Positions 13,436 to 18,494 of a stretch of DNA of 18,494 nt are shown here, in pieces; within the stretch, counting starts at the first letter, position 1, and every line of letters begins with the position of its first letter. Position numbers and translations under genes: made by a program. The notes under the pieces are model-generated. The model ran no database searches and was not told the origin of the DNA. It saw only the letters and a list, made by a program, of their open reading frames with translations. The DNA is from an uncultured Lachnospiraceae bacterium. GTDB taxonomy: Bacteria; Bacillota; Clostridia; Lachnospirales; Lachnospiraceae. Location of the stretch: assembly GCA_934418125.1 (NCBI GenBank), contig CAKRWT010000044.1:1-18494 (forward strand), in the 5' to 3' direction.

Positions 13436-15337
13436 ATGGCAGATATGAGAGGTAGAACACCTTATAGAGGAAAGACCACAGAGAATTCGGGCAAGACCTT
13501 CAAACGTCTGATGAAATATGTTATGAAAAATTATGCGCCCCATATCATTCTTGTGGCAGTTCTGATTCTGGTCAGTGTACTGGCAAATATCCAGGGAACA
13601 CTGTTTATCCAGAGTCTGATAGATGATTATATAGCCCCCATGCTGGTGGCAGATACCCCGGACTTTACGCCTCTTGCCAGAGGAATCATGCAGGTGGCAG
13701 TCTTTTATCTCATCGGTGTGGCAGCGGCGTATGCCTACAACCGTATTATGATTAACGTAACCCAGGGAACCCTTAGAAATGTGCGAAATGATTTGTTTTC
13801 CCATATGGAAACGCTCCCGATTAAATACTTTGATACCCATTCCCATGGCGATATCATGTCCACTTATACGAATGATACCGACACACTGCGCCAGATGATA
13901 AGCCAGAGCTTGCCACAGGTGTTCAATAGTGTGATTACCATTATCGGTGTCTTTATCAGTATGGTAATTTTAAGTGTACCATTGACGATTGTTACGCTGA
14001 TTATGGTAGCGGTTATGTTAGTCGCAACCAAGAAGGTTGCCGGACTAAGCGGCAGGTACTTTTTGCAGCAACAGAAAGATATCGGTAAGGTCAACGGCTT
14101 TATTGAAGAGATGATGGAAGGACAGAAAGTAGTCAAGGTTTTCTGCCATGAAGAAAAAAATACAGAAGCATTCCAGAAGCTGAATGACCAGTTGTTCCAG
14201 AGTGCAGACAAGGCAAACTACATGGTCAATATTATCGGACCTGTCAATGCACAGCTTGGTAACGTAAGCTATGTAGTCTGCGCTATCGTAGGGGGTGTGA
14301 TGGCATTATCCGGTTTCGGAGGACTTACGCTGGGTGCGCTTGCCAGCTTCCTGGCCTTTAACAAGAACTTCAGTCAGCCCATTAACCAGGTAAGTCAACA
14401 GTTTAACTCCATCGTTATGGCTATGGCAGGTGCAGAACGTATTTTCCAGATGATGGATGAGACACCGGAAGCAGACGAGGGCTATGTAGCCCTGGTTAAT
14501 GTGAAAGAAGAAAATGGAAAATTAACAGAGAGCAAGGAAAGAACCGGACGTTGGGCATGGAGGCATGAGCACCAGGCAGACGGCAGCGTAGACTATGTGG
14601 AACTGAAAGGTGACATTGTATTTGATGGTGTGGACTTCGGTTACACGGATGAGAAAATGGTACTCCATGACGTGAAACTTTTTGCCACACCGGGACAAAA
14701 GATTGCTTTTGTAGGCTCTACCGGTGCCGGAAAAACAACGATTACCAACCTGATTAACCGCTTCTATGATATTCAGGATGGTAAGATTCGTTATGACGGC
14801 ATCAATATCAACAAGATTAAAAAGGCGGATTTACGTCGCTCCTTAGGCATTGTATTACAGGATACCCACTTATTTACCGGAACTGTCAAAGATAACATTC
14901 GTTACGGAAAACTGGATGCCACAGACGAAGAAGTCATGGCAGCCGCTAAGCTGGCAAATGCAGACGGCTTTATCAGACATCTGTCAGATGGCTACGATAC
15001 CATGCTGACTGGTGATGGGGCGAACCTAAGCCAGGGACAAAGACAGCTCCTGGCGATTGCAAGAGCAGCCATTGCCAATCCACCGGTGTTGATTCTGGAT
15101 GAAGCAACCAGCTCCATTGATACCCGTACTGAGCGAATCGTACAGGATGGTATGGATAAGCTGATGAAAGGCAGAACCACCTTCGTCATTGCCCACAGAC
15201 TGTCAACCGTCAAGAACTCTGACTGTATTATGGTATTAGAGCAGGGGCGGATTATCGAGCGTGGAACTCACGACCAACTTATCGAAGAAAAAGGCAGATA
15301 TTACCAGTTGTATACCGGTAATGCCATTGCACAGTAG
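13436..15337 (+). CDS. Heterodimeric ABC exporter, subunit with canonical ATPase site
   Basis: A 633-residue half transporter and the partner of the preceding gene. A cytoplasmic lead (1-30) precedes the six-helix membrane domain (about 33-335). A linker insertion (about 345-388, with GRWAWRHEH) that is typical of this Firmicutes branch then joins the ATPase domain. Walker A is GSTGAGKT (427-434), Walker B LILDE with catalytic Glu556, and H-loop His587 (IAHRLSTV). The signature is LSQGQ (531-535), not LSGGQ, fitting its role opposite the degenerate Walker site of the other subunit. So the pair has one active and one degenerate ATP site, like BmrCD. Start ATG 13436 with a modest AAGG-type site. 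Its last two codons and TAG stop are the first nine bases of a 66-bp tandem repeat that continues downstream. Confidence 0.92.
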   Translation: MADMRGRTPYRGKTTENSGKTFKRLMKYVMKNYAPHIILVAVLILVSVLANIQGTLFIQSLIDDYIAPMLVADTPDFTPLARGIMQVAVFYLIGVAAAYAYNRIMINVTQGTLRNVRNDLFSHMETLPIKYFDTHSHGDIMSTYTNDTDTLRQMISQSLPQVFNSVITIIGVFISMVILSVPLTIVTLIMVAVMLVATKKVAGLSGRYFLQQQKDIGKVNGFIEEMMEGQKVVKVFCHEEKNTEAFQKLNDQLFQSADKANYMVNIIGPVNAQLGNVSYVVCAIVGGVMALSGFGGLTLGALASFLAFNKNFSQPINQVSQQFNSIVMAMAGAERIFQMMDETPEADEGYVALVNVKEENGKLTESKERTGRWAWRHEHQADGSVDYVELKGDIVFDGVDFGYTDEKMVLHDVKLFATPGQKIAFVGSTGAGKTTITNLINRFYDIQDGKIRYDGININKIKKADLRRSLGIVLQDTHLFTGTVKDNIRYGKLDATDEEVMAAAKLANADGFIRHLSDGYDTMLTGDGANLSQGQRQLLAIARAAIANPPVLILDEATSSIDTRTERIVQDGMDKLMKGRTTFVIAHRLSTVKNSDCIMVLEQGRIIERGTHDQLIEEKGRYYQLYTGNAIAQ

Positions 15338-15562
15338 TGCATCTGTACCAGAGCCGGTGTTTGGAAAAGTGCTATGGGACAGCACAATTAAATCGCACAG
15401 TAGTGCATCTGTGCCAGAGCCGGTGTTTGGAAAAGTGCTATGGGACAGCACAATTAAATCGCACAGTAGTGCATCTGTGTCGGAGCCAGTGTTTGGAAAA
15501 GTGCTATGGGACAGCACAATTAAATCGCACAGTAGTGCATCTGTGCCAGAGCCAGTGTTTGG
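15329..15562 (+). repeat. 66-bp tandem repeat starting at the exporter stop codon (3.5 copies)
   Basis: Copies begin at 15329, 15395, 15461 and 15527 (the last is 36 bp). They are nearly identical: the visible changes are A/G after CTGT in copy 1, two changes in copy 3 and G/A in the AGCCRGTG segment. Each full unit holds two inverted repeats: GCACAG-N8-CTGTGC and GTGCT-N7-AGCAC. The first nine bases are the exporter's last two codons plus TAG, so the array may have grown from the end of that gene. The unit is open in several frames on both strands, which follows from its length (22 codons) and is not evidence of coding. Confidence 0.95.
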
Positions 15563-15737: not shown

Positions 15738-15890
15738 ATGGCGGAAGAAAAGTTACTGGAAGAAAAGTTACTGGAAGAAAAGTCATCGGAAGAAAAGTTA
15801 CTGGAAGAAAAGTTGCCGGAAGAAAAGTTGCTGGAAGAAAAGCTGCCGGAAGAAAAGTTGTCGGAAGAAAAGTTACTGGAAGAAAAATGA
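15738..15890 (+). CDS. Possible 50-residue EEKLL-repeat peptide (uncertain)
   Basis: An ATG at 15738 opens a frame for MAEEKLLEEKLL and eight further five-residue units, ending in EEK and TGA. It would be a highly charged, probably helical peptide with no signal sequence. The preceding AAAGAG is a weak ribosome binding site. The whole frame is a 15-bp DNA repeat whose GAAGAAAAG part is invariant even at synonymous positions, so copying at DNA level explains it as well as selection on a protein. Two other frames are also open through it. It lies between a good promoter and the downstream membrane protein gene and could be a leader ORF. I give it low confidence as a gene. Confidence 0.3.
   Translation: MAEEKLLEEKLLEEKSSEEKLLEEKLPEEKLLEEKLPEEKLSEEKLLEEK
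15744..15887 (+). repeat. 15-bp tandem repeat, 9.6 copies, varying only by transitions
   Basis: Nine full units at 15-bp steps from 15744 plus a partial tenth. Each unit is GAAGAAAAG followed by a hexamer. The nine hexamers are TTACTG (four times), TCATCG, TTGCCG, TTGCTG, CTGCCG and TTGTCG. All fit YYRYYG, so every difference is a transition and all lie in five neighbouring positions. Confidence 0.95.
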
Positions 15891-15989: not shown

Positions 15990-17927
15990 ATGAAAACAAT
16001 TAAGAAGGCAGGACTGTGGGTGCTCTCTCTCTTTTTCCTGCTGATGACATTGGGAGCATTCAGGCAGAGTGTTTTAAGTGGTTTACTGTTGCTTGCAGCG
16101 GCACTTCTTTGTAATCCACTGGTATTAAATGGAATACAAAAGACTGGGAGAAGAATGAAGCCGGCTATTACAATACCAGGTGTTATTGTATTGTTTTTTG
16201 CCGGGGTTTTGACAGCACCTTCCAGTGGCAGCGGCGAAACCCATGATGTAGCAACAGCACAGCAGGCGACTACAGAGATAGCAACCATGCAGGACACTGG
16301 AGCAGAAGAGAGCAATTCGGATGAAGCAGCAGGAAATGAGGCAGAAGCAGTTTTAAAAGAAGCGGATACAGAGAATCCGAAGACAGAGAATCCGAAGACA
16401 GAGAATCCAAAGGCAGAGAATCCGAAGACAGAGAATTCGAAGACAGAGAATCCAAAGGCAGAGAATTCAAAGACAGAGAATACCAAAGTAGAGAATTCAG
16501 AAACAGAATTGAACGTGCACTTTCTGGATGTGGGGCAGGGAGATGCTGTTCTCATTTCCTGTGATGATGCCTATATGCTTATTGATGCGGGAGATAATGA
16601 TAAAGGTACTCTGGTGCAGAATTATCTGAATAAACAGGGCGTGGAACACCTGGATTACATCATCGGTACGCACCCAGATGCAGACCATATTGGTGGCATG
16701 GATGTTATTTTGTATAAATTTGACTGTGGTACAGTGATGATGCCGGAGGTAACCAATGATACAGCAACCTACCGTGATGTGATAGATACCATGAAGGAAA
16801 AGGGCTATCAGAATACGGCACCAGTTGTCGGCGATTCTTATTCGCTTGGCAGTGCACAGTTTACTATTTTAGGTCCAACAGATACCTATGAGGATACAAA
16901 CAATAACTCTATTGTATTATTGCTGACCCATGGCGATAATAAATTTTTGTTTGTAGGTGATGCAGAGGAAAAAGCAGAGGAAGATATACTGGCAGAAGGT
17001 GTTTCTGTCAAAGCAGACGTACTCAAGGTAGGACATCACGGCAGCCGTACGGCTTCTTCAGAAGCATTTCTGCAGGCAGTAGAGCCAACGTACGCAGTCA
17101 TTAGCTGTGGACAGGATAATAGCTATGGGCACCCGCATGCGGAAACTTTAAATACGCTGCGCAGCATGGGAGTAAAGCTATTTCGTACCGACGAACAGGG
17201 GACTGTGACAGCCACTTCCGATGGACATGAAATCAGTTGGAACTGTGCTCCTTCTACTACCTGGAAAGCTGGTGAAAATGTACAGAGCAGCACCGGTACA
17301 GACCAGAAGAAGTCTAATACAGCAAACAGTAAGAAGAACCTGTCAGATACTACAAATAGTTCAGTACAGCCTGCGGCAAGCCAAAGCAGTGGGACGCAGA
17401 CGGGTGCAGATAGTCAGAGCAGCGGGGCGCAGACAGGCACAGATAGTCAGAGTAGTACGACACAGTCCAGTGTTACAGGAAGTACCAACAGCCAGTCTGC
17501 AGCAAGTCAGGGTAGTACGACACAGTCCAGTGTTACAGGAAGTACCAACAGCCAGTCTGCAGCAAGGCAGGGCAGTACGACACAGTCCAGTGTTACAGGA
17601 AGTGCCAACAGCCAGTCTGCAGCAAGGCAGGGTGGTACGACACAGTCCAGTGTTACAGGAAGTACCAACAGCCAATCTGCAGCAAGTCAGGGTAGTGCAG
17701 CGCAGACGGATAGCACTCAGATTGCCGGAGTCACCCAGGAAAACAATGGCAGCAATTTTGGAACCGCACCAGCTACCGGCAGTTATATAGGCAACCGCAA
17801 TAATCATAAGCTGCATCGGGCAAGCTGTTCTTATCTACCCAAGGAAAAGAATCAGGTTATCTTTGACACTAGAGAGGCAGCTGTGGCAGCCGGTTATAAT
17901 GACCCCTGTGGGCATTGCAATCCATAG
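15990..17927 (+). CDS. Membrane-anchored ComEC-type metallo-beta-lactamase-fold protein with repeats and Ada-like C terminus
   Basis: A 645-residue protein. Three hydrophobic segments (about 8-25, 28-46, 57-76) should leave the rest outside the cell. Residues 127-171 are nine TENPK-like units. The metallo-beta-lactamase-fold domain (about 173-418) has HFLDVGQGDA (177-186), THPDADHIGG (227-236; the HxDxDH form seen in the ComEC nuclease domain), FVGDAEE (321-327), VGHHGS (347-352) and YGHPH (379-383). Residues about 425-590 are Ser/Thr/Gln/Asn-rich with four 20-residue repeats. The end (about 598-645) has His606, His609, Cys613, Cys640 and Cys643 in the pattern of the Ada metal-binding-like domain found at the end of some secreted nucleases. 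The start ATG follows GCGAGG. ComEC transport helices are absent, so it is probably a cell-surface hydrolase, perhaps acting on DNA. Substrate is inference. Confidence 0.88.
   Translation: MKTIKKAGLWVLSLFFLLMTLGAFRQSVLSGLLLLAAALLCNPLVLNGIQKTGRRMKPAITIPGVIVLFFAGVLTAPSSGSGETHDVATAQQATTEIATMQDTGAEESNSDEAAGNEAEAVLKEADTENPKTENPKTENPKAENPKTENSKTENPKAENSKTENTKVENSETELNVHFLDVGQGDAVLISCDDAYMLIDAGDNDKGTLVQNYLNKQGVEHLDYIIGTHPDADHIGGMDVILYKFDCGTVMMPEVTNDTATYRDVIDTMKEKGYQNTAPVVGDSYSLGSAQFTILGPTDTYEDTNNNSIVLLLTHGDNKFLFVGDAEEKAEEDILAEGVSVKADVLKVGHHGSRTASSEAFLQAVEPTYAVISCGQDNSYGHPHAETLNTLRSMGVKLFRTDEQGTVTATSDGHEISWNCAPSTTWKAGENVQSSTGTDQKKSNTANSKKNLSDTTNSSVQPAASQSSGTQTGADSQSSGAQTGTDSQSSTTQSSVTGSTNSQSAASQGSTTQSSVTGSTNSQSAARQGSTTQSSVTGSANSQSAARQGGTTQSSVTGSTNSQSAASQGSAAQTDSTQIAGVTQENNGSNFGTAPATGSYIGNRNNHKLHRASCSYLPKEKNQVIFDTREAAVAAGYNDPCGHCNP
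16368..16502 (+). repeat. 15-bp repeat coding TENPK units in the surface protein
   Basis: Nine 15-bp units encode five-residue blocks (TENPK, AENPK, TENSK, AENSK, TENTK, VENSE), forming a charged linker between the membrane segments and the enzymatic domain. Variation is mostly at Pro/Ser and Thr/Ala codons. Confidence 0.95.
17461..17700 (+). repeat. 60-bp repeat coding 20-residue Ser/Thr/Gln-rich units
   Basis: Four adjacent 60-bp copies begin at 17461, 17521, 17581 and 17641 and differ at a few bases each (for example AGT/AGG giving Ser/Arg, ACC/GCC giving Thr/Ala). They encode SVTGSTNSQSAASQGSTTQS-like units in the linker before the C-terminal Cys/His domain. Shorter related SQSSGAQTGTD blocks lie just upstream. 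Confidence 0.95.
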
Positions 17928-17970: not shown

Positions 17971-18106
17971 AAGACTTGAACCAAAGTAAGTCCTAAGACC
18001 GAGTAGAATCTAAGCCAAACAAGGTCTAAGCCAGAGCAAGGTCTAAGCCAAGCAAGGTCTGAGCCAGAGCAAGGTCTAAGCAAAATAAGGTCTGAGCCAA
18101 AGCAAG
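17971..18106 (+). repeat. 33-bp tandem repeat built of alternating 17- and 16-bp halves
   Basis: Unit starts at 17971 (17), 17988 (17), 18005 (16), 18021 (17), 18038 (16), 18054 (17), 18071 (16) and 18087 (17), with consensus AAGGTCTRAGCCARAGC; the short halves lack one base near the end. The two leftmost units are the most diverged. No SD-preceded start and no strong hairpin or terminator was seen here. Confidence 0.85.
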
Positions 18107-18137: not shown

Positions 18138-18494
18138 GGGTATAAGAGGCAAAAAGTCTTCGCAATACCCGGGAAAAATTCAAACTGTGGGTATAGGAAA
18201 GGATATTACTTTTGGATAACCAGAATAGGTAAATGGGGAGGGTATAGAGAGACAAAATAAGTGAGAATACCCATTCAGCCAGAAAAATGAGGGTATGGTG
18301 TATAAAAGGAAGCAGAAATACCCAGACAACAGTCAAGCGGTGGGTATAAGAAGTAAAAAGTCTTCATAATACCCAGAAGAAGTCTAAGTTAGTGGGTATG
18401 CCAAAAGGAAAAGTCTCGTAATACCCAGCTGGCAGGTGAATTATGGGTATGAAAGAAGAAAAGTTGTGCAAATACCCAGAAGAAGTCTAAGTTA
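18138..18494 (+). repeat. Array of seven 51-bp units bounded by GGGTAT...ATACCC inverted hexamers
   Basis: GGGTAT begins at 18138, 18189, 18240, 18291, 18342, 18394 and 18445 (steps 51, 51, 51, 51, 52, 51). In every unit the inverted partner ATACCC ends exactly 33 nt from the start (18170, 18221, 18272, 18323, 18374, 18426, 18477); unit 2 has ATAACC instead. The 21-nt cores are purine-rich but poorly conserved; units 1 and 5 share AAAAAGTCTTC. Linkers are 18-19 nt and mostly unrelated, except that units 5 and 7 share agaagaagtctaagtta. The window ends in the linker after unit 7, so the array may continue. No gene is supported in this stretch. Confidence 0.95.

Follow-up and report, generated by a model that had tools for sequence, protein, structure and literature searches.

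Repetitive extragenic palindromic (REP) repeats flank the gene of the REP-associated tyrosine transposase (RAYT), and iteron or operator arrays such as ParR-parC are made of phased tandem sites adjoining the gene of their presumed binder. Homing endonucleases, including PD-(D/E)XK ones, are small nuclease-like proteins of many specificities with recurrent sites beside conserved genes. In REPtrons, which combine REP repeats with TnpA-REP/RAYT, enzyme and repeat are reported to have co-evolved (PMC8266576). In this study, we analyzed an array of inverted hexamers, GGGTAT-N21-ATACCC, at the end of an 18,494-nucleotide stretch of DNA from an uncultured Lachnospiraceae bacterium (contig CAKRWT010000044.1); this whole stretch is called the window below. 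We consider it likely that its dyads serve as phased recognition sites of a PD-(D/E)XK-like protein, about 255 amino acids long and linked to the array, a reading that includes docking of the protein and REP-RAYT-like persistence of the repeats.

The array consists of seven dyads, none assigned to a strand, in which the partner hexamer starts 27 bases after each GGGTAT. Units 1 (18138..18170), 3 (18240..18272), 4 (18291..18323), 5 (18342..18374), 6 (18394..18426) and 7 (18445..18477) are exact, and unit 2 (18189..18221) has one mismatch in its right arm, which reads ATAACC. A preliminary description of this DNA had reported seven units with 13 of 14 hexamers perfect, and this was reproduced; unit 7, the last in view, ends 17 bases before the window does, and the array passes the window end. 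The near-constant 51-bp step given there holds for five steps and fails for one (51, 51, 51, 51, 52, 51), the step of 52 being the one that precedes unit 6. The exact dyad occurs six times in the window and never in 200 dinucleotide-preserving shuffles. Elsewhere in the window GGGTAT occurs nine times and ATACCC five times, yet no GGGTAT-ATACCC pair with 10-39 bases between them was found. Pairwise identity between units is 1.00 for left arms and 0.95 for right arms, 0.41 for cores (shuffled 0.32) and 0.42 for linkers (shuffled 0.30). The low core and linker values bear out the drift described earlier, but identity stays above the shuffled level, and some units are duplicates, because the linker AGAAGAAGTCTAAGTTA is present in both unit 5 and unit 7, and units 1 and 5 have AAAAAGTCTTC in common. 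Cores and linkers are diverged, though not random. With conservation limited to the 6-bp arms, we agree with the earlier view that this is not a clustered regularly interspaced short palindromic repeats (CRISPR) array; no Cas family was among those listed for the 10 window proteins scanned.

Genome contigs were searched for two GGGTAT dyads 10-30 bases apart. The pattern was found in 46 stretches, all in metagenome-assembled genomes titled Lachnospiraceae, Roseburia, Tyzzerella, Clostridium or Clostridia, and in no stretch of the viral contigs. Steps of 50-53 prevail within the spacing that the pattern permits, and extra dyads flanking these stretches lie mostly at steps of 60-62, 69-71, 80-81 or their sums, with exceptions such as 56, 76 and 100. 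The geometry recurs elsewhere around different cores, as this search of other genomes, suggested in the preliminary description, made clear. One candidate for an array of the same kind (L034) was dropped, being a 23-bp tandem repeat.

The dyad stretches led to a family of proteins of about 255 amino acids that has no Pfam family and is laid out as an N-terminal β-hairpin domain followed by a PD-(D/E)XK-like C-terminal domain. The N-domain, predicted to fold as a helix, a β-hairpin and a long helix, is the predicted DNA reader. The conserved acidic motif in an alpha-beta core that marks the PD-(D/E)XK superfamily is present in the family, whose members are found in gut bacteria and probably cut DNA; since the nuclease motifs are retained, cutting probably plays a part at some point. 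A single family query gave 3045 matches at E 0.001, and where the listed ones bear a name it is just 'ATPase' or 'hypothetical protein'. At E 0.01, 129 members together matched 13 Pfam families, which include no transposase, and so no HuH/Y1, and no Nop domain was found in the Pfam scan of these members. In structure searches the C-domain paired with TnsA, the Tn7 endonuclease, and the N-domain gave only helical pairs of middling Z, none of them nameable. A 347-amino-acid relative (P0153) carries the precomputed Pfam domains PF00376 and PF13411, which we take to be MerR by name, and is perhaps a fusion. No published description of the nuclease family or of the array was among the matches listed from the open-licence literature.

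Up to 1.1 kb on each side of 154 nuclease loci was scanned for recurring inverted 6-bp pairs with no hexamer assumed, after removal of a fragment locus (L174). Upstream flanks with at least three inverted pairs peak at spans 33-37 (31 of 154 at span 33 and 34 of 154 at span 35). Controls with mirror, direct or complement pairs, run over the same DNA, gave 1-10 at spans 33-35 and did not exceed 16 at any span from 20 to 55. The contrast shrinks when any span of 24-42 is allowed, because tandem repeats recur by themselves: at least three pairs were then found upstream at 81 loci for inverted, 56 for direct, 42 for mirror and 20 for complement pairs, and at least four at 54, 33, 20 and 12 loci, respectively. 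A de novo dyad caller found arrays at 92 of the 154 nuclease genes and at 53 of 77 hold-out genes. Of the control windows, it called none of the 26 that came from other Lachnospiraceae loci and 2 of the 80 that were taken, array-free, from array genomes; one of these 2 falls in a nuclease locus. The full caller, on which the counts of 92 and 53 and the hold-out of the arm rules depend, favors steps near whole helical turns, whereas the span counts and the unfiltered phasing given below do not. Most arrays lie upstream of the gene, both in the training set (62 of 84 with an intact protein, with a median end 122 bases before the start codon) and in the hold-out set (43 of 53). Promoters between array and nuclease gene showed no excess over shuffled sequence. 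The hexamer varies by locus and includes GGGTAT, GGGCAT, GGGTCT, CCGACT, ACCGTA and GTCA types, among others.

The arms follow the protein that they accompany. The share of locus pairs with similar arms is 6% where protein identity is below 30% and 75% where it exceeds 60% (28 pairs). Arm similarity has a partial association of 0.174 with the N-domain when the C-domain is held fixed (largest of 300 permutations, 0.090) and of 0.022 with the C-domain when the N-domain is held fixed. When alignment columns are ranked, residues 32 and 37 (numbering of P0002) come out on top at 0.172 and 0.158, with a null maximum of 0.130 over 60 permutations; both lie within the predicted hairpin, and residue 247 of the C-domain ranks third at 0.137. 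Twenty of the 154 proteins were dropped for length, stops or end, leaving 134, and the class tests used 83 loci, namely the 92 with arrays less eight without an intact protein and one gapped at residue 32. Among these training loci, Asn/Lys at the two positions goes with GGG arms (24 of 26 versus 7 of 57), Ser/Gln with CGTA (8 of 15 versus 1 of 68), Asp/Arg with GTCA (4 of 4 versus 2 of 79) and Lys/Glu with CCGA (3 of 4 versus 0 of 79). For pairs matched at 45-55% identity, arms are similar in 52% of 185 pairs with equal residues and in 8% of 147 with different ones.

These four residue rules were fixed before 78 new loci were fetched; the new loci are related to the training loci and come partly from the same genomes, and they represent unseen loci, not independent lineages. 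Removal of one duplicate, 24 loci without an array and two without an intact protein left 51. Three rules held: Asn/Lys with GGG (8 of 8 versus 3 of 43), Ser/Gln with CGTA (8 of 12 versus 1 of 39) and Asp/Arg with GTCA (4 of 4 versus 0 of 47). The Lys/Glu rule failed in its strict form (0 of 2 versus 0 of 49), the two arrays reading CCCnACTAA and GCCCnAC. An association of Gly/Arg seen in training (3 of 3 versus 4 of 80) stands outside the four rules, and its one hold-out member misfits. Residues 32 and 37 largely predict the arm sequence, and the linked nuclease-like protein is probably what reads the array.

Spacing was analyzed without a step filter. The 153 distinct steps of 117 arrays give a resultant of 0.73 at a period of 10.2 bases; they fall at 50-54, 60-64, 69-75, 80-85 and 93-95, with four at 41-46 and one at 49, and none at 55-59, 65-68, 76-79 or 86-92. 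The hold-out steps (n = 77) give 0.74 at 10.25, with a single step of 56 between the groups, and a mirror-pair control on the training flanks, which draws partly on the same tandem repeats, gives 0.42 at 10.5. Spacing in whole turns suggests proteins bound along a single face of the DNA duplex. As to position, none of 59 clusters of at least two dyads lies within an open reading frame (ORF) of at least 120 amino acids that extends past the cluster, although 17 of these lie so close to an edge that they could not be classed; the count excludes duplicates, L034 and the nuclease loci. With ORFs of at least 90 amino acids, 46 of the 148 dyads in the first 46 loci fall inside one, and many such ORFs are short and run over intergenic DNA. 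Arrays away from nucleases showed no preference for the orientation of the flanking genes (30 co-directional, 6 convergent and 6 divergent, compared with 101, 26 and 21 for gaps of at least 150 bases in the same loci). Whole-turn phasing and an intergenic position would fit any DNA-binding protein, and the array might consist of operators for a host regulator or nucleoid protein that has nothing to do with the nuclease, the latter being just a frequent neighbor. We think this improbable, because two residues of the nuclease largely predict the arms, in the hold-out too, and a regulator would need to change in step with them.

One orthologous cluster lies between the same two genes in genomes G411 and G012, with identity at 57 of 70 aligned positions in arms, 67 of 122 in cores and 92 of 151 in linkers; that of the flanks, 102 of 135, is little below that of the arms. 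A decaying minisatellite without function could account for the nuclease-linked arrays that are nearly homogeneous tandem repeats and would be in keeping with the other tandem repeats of the window, but the arms are kept while the cores diverge, both in the window and in this orthologous pair, the same geometry surrounds unrelated cores and the arm rules are predictive. We find this explanation hardly tenable.

The preliminary description had offered, as interpretations of selection on a dyad, an oligomeric DNA-binding protein, a partition- or replication-like site or an array of small RNA hairpins. Among the 300 dyads of 60 arrays whose cores have diverged, 13 positions deviate in both arms at once, where 7.1 would be expected if the arms were independent, and 5 of the 13 double changes, about a third, are complementary, which is about the chance level. 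The GGGTAT set has 106 both-arm deviations versus 73 expected, of which 34 are complementary, and is weaker evidence since it includes frame-shifted sites. Base pairing between the arms is not supported, and the hairpin option finds no backing here; the recurring geometry, the whole-turn spacing, the better preservation of arms than of cores and the prediction of arms by two residues support the protein option. Hairpins or guides from transcribed repeats, as in tandem interspaced guide RNA (TIGR) or CRISPR systems, would suit an array that adjoins a nuclease-like gene and whose repeats stay the same inside one locus but vary from locus to locus, as is stated for TIGR arrays (PMC12045711). Such an RNA array is nevertheless very unlikely, given the spacing in whole helical turns, the chance level of complementary changes, the related cores retained in the dispersed copies of genome G001 described below and the result that no Rfam family matched the window at the gathering threshold.

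Dyads with the same arms as nuclease-linked arrays are also scattered between genes. The exact GGGTAT dyad occurs 4-87 times per genome in 15 array genomes, and its reversed control 0 or 1 times. Among 397 genomes of G001's family, 59 have at least one dyad and eight at least three; by manual count, the reversed control occurs at least once in about 45 and at most three times per genome. The trait is patchy, because five of the 397 genomes, with 5 to 87 dyads, clearly exceed the background. At least three GGGTAT dyads are found in 7 of 128 nuclease carriers versus 1 of 269 others, and in 5 of 27 carriers of the close nuclease subfamily versus 3 of 370 others. In G001, 17 of the 24 fetched sites hold four dyads ordered 71, 52, 71 (within a few bases), one of the 17 being beside the nuclease. 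A candidate terminal repeat in this genome, GTTCAGCCT, was set aside, being present in some copies and inconsistent. Genome G215 has a second dyad type, CCGACT-N21-AGTCGG, in 12 copies, three at a nuclease gene and nine at six other places; the clusters away from the nuclease have 4-6 dyads (with up to two mismatches) at steps of 52-53 and once 42. In the genus of G215, CCGACT dyads number 12 in G215, two in G474 and none in G009 or G475. Two of the G215 loci (L310 and L314) are copies of one another along 324 bp (84%), and the stretch ends, as judged by eye, with GCTGTTGC and GCAACAGC as inverted partners (L314 has one mismatch); this pair is a possible end structure of a spreading unit. The remaining CCGACT clusters of G215 have no common cores by eye.

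These copies bring up a further explanation, one that overlaps the preferred reading and differs in making mobility the function: a mobile family like REP or miniature inverted-repeat transposable elements, in which the nuclease moves the arrays and remote arrays are non-autonomous. The repeated four-dyad order in G001, the copied stretch of L310 and L314 with its paired ends, the arrays found on both sides of some nucleases and the pairing of the C-domain with TnsA all fit it. Recurrent same-strand upstream neighbors, named from their translations, are comEC (13 loci, with further support for the name), ribosomal protein S9 (8), PPDK (4) and lysS (4 of 5). Three nuclease lineages of 26-35% mutual identity stand at the same place behind comEC, which also fits mobility; they differ in their arms and carry Asn/Lys, Lys/Glu and Thr/Arg at the two positions, and no array was called at 5 of the 13 comEC loci. 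Loci at this spot include L170, L172, L202, L208, L209, L219, L240 and L258, and it looks like a hot spot. There is no general strand rule for the upstream neighbor, because over 136 loci with crude ORFs it is on the same strand in 78 and on the opposite strand in 51, with none in 7. Mobility as the function is harder to reconcile with the inconsistent terminal repeat of G001, with the unshared cores of the other G215 clusters and with the orthologous cluster that stays put in two genomes. Relatives in mobile-element collections are also few: near full-length ones in 3 of 50,697 phage records (27-32% identity, in unannotated fecal contigs), eight plasmid records with no more than 52% query coverage and eight viral-contig loci whose best segments start at residue 133 or 135. 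We regard a mobile family as possible, though we lean against it.

If the arrays are recognition sites for the linked protein, one dimer would bind each dyad, with one β-hairpin per arm, and neighboring dimers would be aligned on one face of the DNA. With less certainty, and as a guess, the protein may dock at its own promoter region where the array stands beside its gene, restraining expression or activity, and copies of the array may have spread through the chromosome by a REP-like route. The chances seem to us evenly balanced that these proteins are self-docking compact nucleases whose hairpin carries a residue code at 32 and 37, with the array as dock, brake and seed of chromosome-wide satellites, the whole being a selfish or domesticated enzyme-repeat pair of a new class and possibly a template for programmable DNA binding. 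The hexamer and the geometry are what would place the window array in the nuclease-linked system. No match to the nuclease family was found within the window. As the array is of the GGGTAT type, a nuclease with Asn32/Lys37 should start soon after 18494, a prediction made by analogy with the 43 of 53 hold-out arrays that lie upstream of their gene.

The gene adjoining the array upstream (15990..17927, plus strand) encodes a metallo-beta-lactamase (MBL)-fold protein of the ComEC/Rec2 C-terminal type, and the window array likewise follows a gene of ComEC C-terminal type. The protein matches NCBIfam TIGR00361 over residues 170-404 (E 8.5e-47, 159.7 bits, below the cut-off of 190), Pfam Lactamase_B (E 1.4e-19) and, in a C-terminal segment, Ada_Zn_binding (E 4.4e-5). 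Relatives of the MBL gene are present in 21 of 22 genomes, the best-scoring ones being 44-57% identical. No GGGTAT dyad, the only type looked for, was found at four places with such relatives (L122 and L132-L134). The gene is an upstream neighbor of the array and is not known as part of the array system. Tandem repeats are found in and around it: 15-bp, 33-bp and 60-bp repeats inside the gene (16368-17696), a TCTAAGCCAAACAAGG-type repeat of period 33 (and 16) immediately 5′ of the array (18009-18106), a 15-bp repeat, GGAAGAAAAGTTACT, of 9.6 copies before the gene (15743-15886) and a 66-bp repeat of 3.5 copies with a 96% match that covers the last part of an ABC transporter gene and extends into the gap after it (15329-15562). 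A 33-bp repeat adjoins an array in G001 as well (L033), and its similarity to that of the window scores 28, the shuffle maximum being 26.

If the preferred reading, that of recognition sites for the linked protein, is true, a large protein family would acquire a testable code, a target on DNA and a domain that reads it. The system would be an enzyme-repeat pair built from parts unlike those of REP-RAYT and would explain intergenic repeats of gut Clostridia. Its small DNA-reading domain would have changed specificity many times in nature. Among described systems, TIGR-Tas resembles it in having a tandem array by the gene that is constant within and different between loci (PMC12045711). It differs from TIGR-Tas in the lack of a Nop domain match in the 129 members, the lack of a sign of RNA and the DNA-helix spacing. 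In TIGR-Tas systems the array gives rise to 36-nt RNAs. The PADLOC candidates PDC-S68, PDC-S69 and HEAT_CxxC_PD-DEXK share a C-terminal nuclease-type domain with the family; the PDC-S68 models have about 1200 positions and match only at their C-terminal end, and PDC-S69 and HEAT_CxxC_PD-DEXK have fewer than 300 positions and match weakly. We know of no array with any of these three, and none was looked for. Unlike homing endonucleases, whose sites are destroyed by insertion of the gene, the family has sites that are kept as arrays by the gene. Unlike ParR-parC, the presumed binder has a nuclease domain, and one family has many specificities. REP-RAYT is the nearest comparison: a chromosomal single-gene enzyme is paired with its own repeats, of which there are many dispersed copies (PMC8266576). 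REP repeats are short tagged hairpins. As for the hairpin, the arms here are 21 bases apart and both-arm changes have no complementary excess. Enzyme class and repeat design differ: RAYT is a HuH transposase acting on folded single-stranded palindromes, and the system described here appears to join a PD-(D/E)XK-like protein to arrays whose spaced half-sites lie along a single helical face.
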